DNA from: an uncultured Verrucomicrobia subdivision 3 bacterium | Lineage (GTDB): Bacteria > Verrucomicrobiota > Verrucomicrobiia > Limisphaerales > UBA11358 | Reading direction: 5' to 3' | Length of the DNA: 33,488 bases | Assembly (NCBI GenBank): GCA_903889895.1 | Contig: CAISYZ010000033.1 | Span: 1-33,488 of the forward strand | In this document: in pieces, positions 7,628 through 32,115 of the stretch | Position numbering within the stretch: position 1 is the first letter of the stretch | Layout: each line of letters opens with the position of its first letter | The notes under the pieces: generated by a model | Seen by the model: the letters and a program-made list of their open reading frames with translations, nothing else | Databases searched by the model: none | What the model was told of the DNA's origin: nothing | Translations under genes and position numbers: made by a program

Positions 7628-8524
<897 letters not shown>

Positions 8525-8537
8525 CCGCCAAGTAAAA

Positions 8538-9386
8538 CTATCCCTGCTCGAATTCTGATTCTTCGTCCGGCAGGCCGCGACGGCTGGGGCCGGTGGCGTA
8601 TTGGCGCAGGTATTTCACCGCCACGCGCAAATCCTTCGGCCACTCGCTCTTGAGGTGCACCGGCTCGTGCGTGGTCGGATGCGCCACGGTCAGTTCCTCG
8701 GCGTGCAGGGCCACGCGCGCCAGCAGCGGGCGTTCATCCTTGCCCGGTTTCAGGCGGAAATCCCGTTTCAACCGCGAGAGCCACAATTTTTTGCCGCCAT
8801 AAAGTTCATCGCCGACCAGAGGAAAGCCCGCGTGTTTGAGGTGAAGGCGAATCTGGTGCGTGCGCTCGGTCAGCGGCGTGCAGCGCAGCAAACACCAGTC
8901 GGAAAATTGTTCAAGCACCTCGAATTCCGTCTTTGATTTTTTGCCGCCGCGTGGATCCACGCGCATCTGGCCGAGGCGCACCGGATGCGGGGAGAGCTTG
9001 GCATCCACTTCAAAGTGCGGTGCCGGCGGCGCGCCCCACGCGAGCGCGACGTATTTTTTCAGCGGCTTCTCCGAGCCGAACAAATTGGCGAGCGCGACGA
9101 GCGCCGGTTTGTTTTTAGCGAGCAGAATGACGCCGCTGGTCTCAAAATCCAGCCGGTGTGCGTTGGCGAGGTAATTTAGATGCCGTTCCTTCGCCCACGG
9201 CTTTTGCAGTTCGATGCCGTCGTGCAGTAGCGTCATCAGGTTCGGCCGTCCGGCGTCGTAGCGGTCCGGCGAGGTGAGCAGACCGGAGGGTTTGTCGAGG
9301 GCCAGCAAATCCCCGTCCTCAAAGAGAACGGGGATTTCCCAAAATTCCTTGGTAGCGGGTGACGAAAGCTTGATGACGGCGCTCAC
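8538..9386 (-). CDS. RluA-family RNA pseudouridine synthase
   Basis: The 282-residue protein isomerises uridine to pseudouridine in RNA. It shows DLLALDKPSGLL (motif I), HRLDFETSGVILLAKN with catalytic Asp80, KKYVALAWG, and RTHQIRLHLKHAGFPLVGDELYGG (motif III and the conserved tail). There is no N-terminal S4 domain, which separates it from RluD and RluC and makes it closer to RluA or TruC-like members. Which RNA and position it modifies cannot be read from sequence. Its ATG overlaps the stop of the upstream PpiD-like gene by four bases, so the two form a minus-strand operon. Confidence 0.9.
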   Translation of the reverse strand: MSAVIKLSSPATKEFWEIPVLFEDGDLLALDKPSGLLTSPDRYDAGRPNLMTLLHDGIELQKPWAKERHLNYLANAHRLDFETSGVILLAKNKPALVALANLFGSEKPLKKYVALAWGAPPAPHFEVDAKLSPHPVRLGQMRVDPRGGKKSKTEFEVLEQFSDWCLLRCTPLTERTHQIRLHLKHAGFPLVGDELYGGKKLWLSRLKRDFRLKPGKDERPLLARVALHAEELTVAHPTTHEPVHLKSEWPKDLRVAVKYLRQYATGPSRRGLPDEESEFEQG

Positions 9387-31300: not shown

Positions 31301-31384
31301 ACGCTTTACATCACGCCGGTGATTTACCTCTACATGGAACGCTTCCAGCAGCGGTTCAAGAAAAATGCACAAAAGCTGGCTTGA
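28298..31384 (+). CDS. RND efflux permease (AcrB/MdtB type, HAE1 family)
   Basis: The 1028-residue protein starts MSVSEIFIRRPVMTTLVMAA and has twelve expected membrane segments in two halves with two large periplasmic loops. The proton-relay Asp pair is in SVGFVVDDAIVMLENIVRHM and the Lys of the second half in VGIVKKNAIMMIDFAIEAQ. Other conserved parts are LPGASPSTMASSVATPLEKQ, QLPPNLPSPPTYQKVNPADS, which resembles the MdtB/MdtC branch, and LMLFKLDLNIYGFVGLIML. It exports hydrophobic or amphiphilic compounds by proton exchange, as a trimer with the adaptor encoded upstream. Only one permease is present, where E. coli MdtBC needs two. Length is complete. Confidence 0.95.
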   Translation: MSVSEIFIRRPVMTTLVMAAILLFGFFGFRLLPVSDLPSVDFPTIQITATLPGASPSTMASSVATPLEKQFSTIAGVDSMTSISALGISQITVQFALDRNIDGAAQDVQAAITRAAKQLPPNLPSPPTYQKVNPADSPVFFLAMSSATLPLSTVDDYAENLFAQRISMVDGVAQVGVFGPQQFAVHVQADPNKLAAYGLGIDTVAAAVAAGNVNQPLGTLYGTHQAFTIQANGQLKNAAAYRPLIVAYRNGNPVRLQEVANVIDSVQNDKVAAWFNGTRGIVLSVQRQPGVNTVAVVDAIKKQLPMLRSQIPAAVNIDMLFDRSEGIRRSVADVEKTLMLTVCLVVMVIFVFLRNISATVIPSLALPLSIVGTFAAMKIAGFSLDNLSLMALTLSVGFVVDDAIVMLENIVRHMENGEPPMAAALRGAKEIGFTIISMTLSLSAVFIPVLFMSGLLGRLLHEFAVTIICAVLVSGFVSLSLTPMMCSRFVHSVREEKHGGIYNAFERFFEHVRSLYERTLRVAMQHRRITLGIAVATFAATVVLFYLIPKGFFPDEDTNQIFCITEGAQDISFEAMKAHQQQAAKIVAANPNVAAFMSAVGLGGSTISGNNGRIFMRLKDRSERRQGAAEIIQDLRKQFAQIPGFNVYPQMPPLIRVGGMLSKTLYQFSLQDTDTEELFKWAPVIRAKIAEHRDVFQDVTSDLQIASPQVIVTIDRDKAAALGVNAEQIENGLYDAFGSGQISTIYGDLAEYWVVFEVLPEFQRDPDALGRLYITSGSGKLVPLSALAKLSRGVAPMTISHVGQLPSVTVSFNLAPGVALGTAVDKIHELEGELHLPATISASLQGSAAVFQSSLAGLGFLLIMSILVIYIILGILYESFIHPLTILSGLPSAGFGALVTLMLFKLDLNIYGFVGLIMLVGIVKKNAIMMIDFAIEAQHHGKKPYDAIFEGCLLRFRPIMMTTMCALMASLPISLGLGAGGESRRALGLAVTGGLIVSQALTLYITPVIYLYMERFQQRFKKNAQKLA

Positions 31385-31416
31385 CCTTGGTGCCGGTCGC
31401 TGTGAAACATTCCAGC

Positions 31417-32115
31417 ATGGGAATGGACGGCGTCGAAATCGTGATGGCAGTGGAAGAAGCTTTCGATATTCACATCGAAGAAGCTGAAGCGGCAAAACTG
31501 CTTACGCCGCGCCAACTCATCGAATTGGTTCAAACCAAAGTCTCCGTGGCGACCGCTTCCGTATGTCTGACCCAGCGCGCCTTCAACCTCCTACGAAAAT
31601 CACTGCTCCACCACGGCGGCTGGAAACGATCTGAAATAACTCCCGCCACCAATCTGGCGGCGCTGATTGGCCGCGACCAACGGACGAACTTGCTGGGAAA
31701 AATTACCGCAGAAATGGGAATTAAAACCCCACCGAAATTAGTTCGGGCAAATTGGTTAAGCATCACCTTGCTGACTAGTTCATTAATGGCCGGCATTGGG
31801 GTGGCTTGGGCTGCGAGAGACACTTTGGGTTCAATCGCCTTATGGATTTTTATCATCGTCGCTATTTCAACCGCCGGAGTCGCCTTGCGCCTTACCGAAC
31901 CACTTTGCAAAGAGTTCCCCGACAACTTAAAAACCGTCGGCGATCTCGCTCGTTGGGTGATGACTCACAAGGCCGATCTTGCCACCGCGACCGCGCCGGC
32001 TTGGACCCGCGAACAAATCACCGCGCGCATTCGTGAAATCATCGTTGAGCAACTTGGCTGCAAACCTGATTTCAATGAAGACGCAAACTTCGTCAAAGAT
32101 CTCGGCTTGAGTTAA
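31417..32115 (+). CDS. Membrane protein with an acyl-carrier-like domain split between its two ends
   Basis: The 232-residue protein starts at ATG 31417. A GTG at 31402 is possible, but the family-like N-terminus begins MGMDGVEIVMAVEEAFDIHI. Residues 1-42 align with ACP helices II-IV (E. coli ACP from DSLDTVELVMALEEEF onward), with Gly in place of the phosphopantetheine Ser. Residues 197-232 (TREQITARIREIIVEQLGCK to FVKDLGLS) align with ACP helix I and the loop up to DLG, then stop. Between are CLTQRAFNLLRKSL, a helical domain, and two membrane helices (about 113-132 and 138-157). It appears to be a circularly permuted or end-paired carrier fold that cannot carry a prosthetic group in the usual way. 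Its function is unknown. It lies between an efflux permease and gatB. Confidence 0.8.
   Translation: MGMDGVEIVMAVEEAFDIHIEEAEAAKLLTPRQLIELVQTKVSVATASVCLTQRAFNLLRKSLLHHGGWKRSEITPATNLAALIGRDQRTNLLGKITAEMGIKTPPKLVRANWLSITLLTSSLMAGIGVAWAARDTLGSIALWIFIIVAISTAGVALRLTEPLCKEFPDNLKTVGDLARWVMTHKADLATATAPAWTREQITARIREIIVEQLGCKPDFNEDANFVKDLGLS

Follow-up and report, generated by a model that had tools for sequence, protein, structure and literature searches.

Encoded in a 33,488-nucleotide stretch of DNA from an uncultured Verrucomicrobia subdivision 3 bacterium (assembly GCA_903889895.1, contig CAISYZ010000033.1; referred to here as the window) is a protein, P0001, that by its sequence is a natural circular permutant of the acyl carrier protein (ACP). 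The cut in the chain falls between ACP positions 35 and 36, a glycine that is now residue 2 occupies the place of the phosphopantetheine serine, and the old ACP ends are joined by a linker, which in the long branch of the family comprises a second ACP-like domain and a transmembrane hairpin. ACP is a classic small protein, central to fatty-acid synthesis; this family appears to reopen it at the active site, drop the cofactor and keep the recognition helix, separating docking from carrying.

The open reading frame (ORF) of P0001 spans 232 codons (31417–32115, + strand) and opens with ATG GGA; its length and both end motifs were confirmed. At the N-terminus is the second half of an ACP with helices II, III and IV (residues 1–43, 31417–31545, + strand), which profiles match past the serine, and at the C-terminus the first half (residues 196–232, 32002–32112, + strand), comprising helix I and the loop to DLG-L-S and ending at ACP position 35. 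In profiles and models alike, the helix order is II–III–IV ... I, unlike that of ordinary ACPs. On the Aquifex ACP (2ehs), the family profile places the C-terminal end on residues 4–34 and the N-terminal end on residues 36–76; between them only the DSL serine is passed over, and Gly2 stands in its place, P0001 having no DSL motif.

The Pfam PP-binding profile matches P0001 at 4.4e-06 (27.3 bits summed over two stretches, cut-off 20.8), the better stretch aligning residues 204–231 with profile positions 2–29. TIGR00517 gives 48.4 bits in two stretches and 59.5 bits in one stretch with the ends joined in ACP order; the 48.4 bits fall below its cut-off of 70.45, and P0001 likewise stays below the cut-offs of all 10 listed NCBIfam ACP models. 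Native and rotated sequences were also scored on a local hidden Markov model (HMM) built from 36 ordinary ACPs. P0001 rises from 27.4 bits native to 71.0 bits rotated, and rotation raises the score of 74/74 members consisting of the permuted ACP alone (bare) and 76/76 long members (P0001 included), with median gains of 47 and 38 bits, respectively; ACP halves kept in native order without the middle have a median of 38 on this model. An earlier note on this DNA had read the two ends as exchanged ACP parts, and Pfam, TIGR00517, the local HMM and the 2ehs alignment all bear this out; its placing of the cut exactly at the phosphopantetheine site, with serine changed to glycine, agrees with the single skipped residue. 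Searched separately, as the note had proposed, both ends match PP-binding, the N-terminal 107 residues at 0.022 (profile 33–67) and the excised C-terminal end at 0.0091, but both fall below the gathering score, and Nab2, an unrelated model, gives the C-terminal end a slightly better value (0.0045).

The permutation is further supported, beyond the profiles, by single-domain permutants and by a family that spans several phyla and keeps its termini fixed. Five bare proteins of 86–93 amino acids, one of 86 from the genome-scan locus L075 and four more (86–93) from a genome search, consist of the permuted ACP alone, and the 86-residue forms are small enough for nuclear magnetic resonance. Among the best 120 of 1529 matches of a profile search with these five are 75 bare permutants, another 3 whose starts were called late, and 42 ordinary ACPs. 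Cultured hosts named in this search include Verrucomicrobium sp. BvORR034 and Lentisphaera profundi, and P0137 is one of the 86-residue permutants. The 75 begin with MG (72) or MS (3); measured from that methionine, 74 are 83–93 residues long (mostly 86) and one is 116. The chain ends exactly at ACP position 35 in 72 of them, one residue short in one and one residue long in two (two of the 75 were judged by eye).

An AlphaFold2 model of the bare form (alignment of 66/75 bare permutants; mean pLDDT 90.8, pTM 0.79) has helices at residues 3–16, 22–26, 31–44 and 51–66, equivalent to II, III, IV and I; the first three recur at the same residues within the ACP second half in the predicted model of P0001. 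Helix IV of an ACP ends near the start of helix I, making the short linker of the bare permutants feasible. In a fold search with the bare model, ACPs were found mostly at 6–9% identity and tied with HAD-type phosphatases, the alignment apparently following sequence order. Because the bare permutants are single domains, their halves must either pair within one chain or be exchanged between sister chains. Swapping, in which the N-half of one chain completes the C-half of another to give dimers or chains at the membrane, would fit the tandem copies at locus L026 and a long-form linker that is an entire domain, but the short-linked bare permutants are confidently modelled as single chains, and we regard it as unlikely.

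Bare forms are rare, with full-length matches at E 1e-12 in 4/337 genomes of the phylum. Bare and long forms occur together in at least 11/288 genomes, one of them with a broken copy, when only matches from profile position 1 are followed. In L087 (3033–3275 and 3366–3644, both − strand), a bare permuted ACP gene has an ordinary ACP gene with an intact DSL less than 100 bases after it. Serine replaces glycine at position 2 in P0144 (Verrucomicrobium sp. BvORR106), P0145 and P0148 (by an internal Met), in which removal of the Met would make the phosphopantetheine-site serine the N-terminal residue. Another candidate site, Ser5 of the MGLDSVEL start found in many bare forms, was rejected, as it is three residues off the helix II register and most long forms have Gly or Ala there (alignments, by eye).

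The ends are fixed in the wider family too. Among the best 120 of 243 matches of a protein search, P0001 itself included, Gly2 is present in 110/110 sequences whose called start includes that residue, and none extends beyond the last C-terminal residue. A genome scan confirmed 90 loci, of which 80 were kept, all with Gly2 (80/80); one of its three patterns held MG[LM]D, and hits of word-based searches may have start words in common, which partly biases this set towards Gly2. The stop codon places the C-terminus of the 74 intact loci exactly at ACP position 35 in 66 (three missed by the pattern and judged by eye), one residue earlier in 5 and one later in 3, with a varying last residue (S, G, D, N, E and others); the remaining six (L009, L040, L041, L060, L077 and L080) are broken or cut by contig ends.

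The loci fall in Verrucomicrobiota, Lentisphaerota, Kiritimatiellota, Planctomycetota, Acidobacteriota, Thermodesulfobacteriota, Pseudomonadota, Myxococcota, Cyanobacteriota and Sumerlaeota, and the relatives that the earlier note mentioned in Planctomycetota and Verrucomicrobiota do exist. As most loci are from metagenome-assembled genomes (MAGs), a phylum with just one find may owe it to contamination; among the named isolates with a member are Desulfogranum japonicum, Oryzomonas japonica, Chitinilyticum aquatile and Rhodopirellula rubra. The distribution is patchy (3/25 genomes of the genus at E 1e-20), and plasmids gave no match for the long form or for one bare form. Early stops break the copies L084, L009 and L040, pointing to loss of the gene as well, or to assembly errors. 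Two long-form genes stand in tandem in a Burkholderiaceae MAG (L026:7017–7940 and 8001–8693), the first starting at an internal Met of the listed ORF. Source annotations, where given, are 'acyl carrier protein', 'hypothetical protein', 'carrier domain-containing protein' and 'phosphopantetheine-binding protein'; those implying a carrier function mislead.

Across 10 pairs of five genes, non-synonymous divergence (dN) is 0.22–0.38, and synonymous divergence (dS) is 1.1–2.1 in the 8 pairs where it is defined. Counted by changes at the first two codon positions, the N- or C-half is the slowest region in 10/10 pairs, which are not independent of one another. A dN well under dS indicates purifying selection and contradicts the notion that these genes are functionless debris of a tandem ACP gene; the fixed ends and conserved start signals also speak against it. 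Although tandem ACP genes would be the simplest route of origin and broken copies exist, we hold debris to be highly improbable.

Inserted between the ACP halves of P0001 is a helical domain, domain B, which itself matches ACPs and encloses the membrane hairpin. Its first part (residues 47–111, 31555–31749, + strand) contains helices I and II and the motif CLTQRAFNLLRK, and its last part (residues 160–190, 31894–31986, + strand) contains helix III/IV and the motif TVGDLARWV. Between them is the hairpin (residues 112–159, 31750–31893, + strand; model helices 112–132 and 140–159), with a mean hydropathy of 1.23 for the first stretch, which is weakly hydrophobic (best 19-residue window 1.59), and 2.25 for the second. 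Two membrane helices and a helical domain had been described in the earlier note as lying between the ends; both are present, but the helical domain is ACP-like, with the hairpin inside it. The structure match of domain B spans a whole ACP, making it a second ACP-like fold, without serine and with a basic surface. In a 426-residue member (L081:8001–9281), the unit of domain B with its hairpin occurs twice between the ACP halves.

Helix II of domain B is mostly basic, an inversion of charge relative to the permuted domain (A), and domain B was found only alongside permuted ACP (2/2 genomes with a match among 115, the window's own included). Both observations fit a regulator of ordinary ACP, in which basic domain B recruits or sequesters acidic ACP at the membrane, with the permuted domain serving as a built-in competitor. 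However, domain B is absent from the bare permutants, and charge alone is weak evidence, with 15/81 and 10/58 B helices not net positive; such a regulator seems to us rather unlikely.

Carrying by a phosphopantetheine arm is itself unlikely, because the serine is gone and an ordinary ACP is encoded in the same genome (121 bits; the genome is ~76% complete). There are precedents for arm-free docking by ACPs: AcpP acts on MukB about equally well in its apo and holo forms, the apo form sufficing for stimulation (PMC8602292), and AcpM is reported to be bound to MmpL5 (PMC11633376, PMC12346298). Together with the kept helix II, this favours a membrane-tethered adaptor or competitor. In such a mechanism the two chain ends would come together at the cytoplasmic face as a restored ACP-like domain, which could not accept a phosphopantetheine arm in the usual way but would retain the acidic helix II through which partners recognise ACPs. 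The rebuilt domain may dock ACP-recognising proteins and hold them at the membrane, or compete with the real ACP, and the mostly basic helix II of domain B may in turn attach to an acidic face, either that of ordinary ACP or that of the permuted domain. A docking role is plausible, and we give this reading as a whole, a serine-less ACP rebuilt from both ends as an adaptor or competitor at the membrane, an even chance of being right.

Docking does not account for the exact cut site or the near-constant Gly2 (Ser in three bare proteins), and for this reason the bolder idea of the chain end as an active handle is kept. The Gly2 amine, freed by removal of Met1, or the C-terminal carboxylate would then lie at the phosphopantetheine site and receive an acyl group or some other one. 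Once Met1 is gone, the two ends join without a gap in the ACP register; Gly2 is found in 110/110 aligned sequences, 80/80 loci and 72/75 bare permutants (the other three having Ser), and Ala and Thr, which would permit Met removal as well, are not found at position 2 in these sets. By contrast, the C-terminal residue is variable, Gly may be needed for backbone shape alone and was favoured by the MG[LM]D pattern and the word-based search, and the few neighbours scanned with Pfam include only one acyltransferase (apolipoprotein N-acyltransferase, L046). An arm-less carrier is quite unlikely, and direct carriage of cargo or of a membrane-seeking acyl group by the free chain terminus is doubtful indeed.

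Compared with AcpP (TIGR00517, PF00550), P0001 shares the sequence of all four helices, the acidic helix II and the DLG motif, but its halves are swapped, Ser36 is replaced by Gly2 at the chain start and DSL is missing. The docking use of the ACP fold in AcpM–MmpL5, Emb–AcpM, complex I and MukB–AcpP resembles the role proposed for P0001. The ACPs in those membrane and other complexes, unlike P0001, are ordinary, serine-bearing and made as separate soluble proteins. Doublet or tandem ACPs (for example, 5y08) also have two ACP-like folds per chain, whereas in P0001 one fold is nested in the other, which is permuted round it, and neither has the serine. The plant saposin-like insert is a naturally permuted helical domain as well, with a different fold and a cut that is not at an active site. 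No natural permuted ACP was found in the titles and abstract openings of the open-licence literature searched, or in a passage of PMC2965948.

In a tree built from the rotated forms of 74 bare, 76 long and 40 ordinary ACPs, a branch supported at 99/88 and present in 98% of bootstrap trees separates the ordinary ACPs from the rest; the tree has only 77 columns, a narrow ordinary sample and a bootstrap that had not settled. A single origin of the permutation is not contradicted by these sequences; bare and long forms intermix in the tree (11 and 10 changes). P0169, a 151-residue tandem ACP, has DL in its first domain where the second has the usual DS, and may illustrate how a permutant could come about.

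The start codon of P0001 is supported by two upstream signals. Shine–Dalgarno-like motifs at −22 to −7 occur in 42/76 loci, against 13–23 in windows starting at −13 or further. TTGAC stands at exactly −36 in 8/76 loci (L002, L003, L005, L006, L007, L009, L054 and L064), between −19 and −111 in 10 further loci, and, compared by eye, also at −36 in the window, within a putative, near-leaderless promoter of the gene's own (31381–31409, + strand) whose −10 region, just before the ATG, matches poorly.

Same-strand neighbours were judged by eye from their first residues, with Pfam run on seven proteins (four from the window, three from loci). No ORF cluster from a simple script, other than the family itself, extends beyond 4/80 loci; a conserved neighbourhood was rejected, the surroundings being uninformative within this coverage. 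The apolipoprotein N-acyltransferase gene (L046:8635–10611) follows one member and was seen once. Upstream of P0001 (26576–31384) are TetR, membrane-fusion and AcrB-type RND genes, the last ending 32 bases before it, and gatB begins downstream. Among the 80 loci, the RND gene is matched only in L003, which keeps the same order with its permuted ACP.
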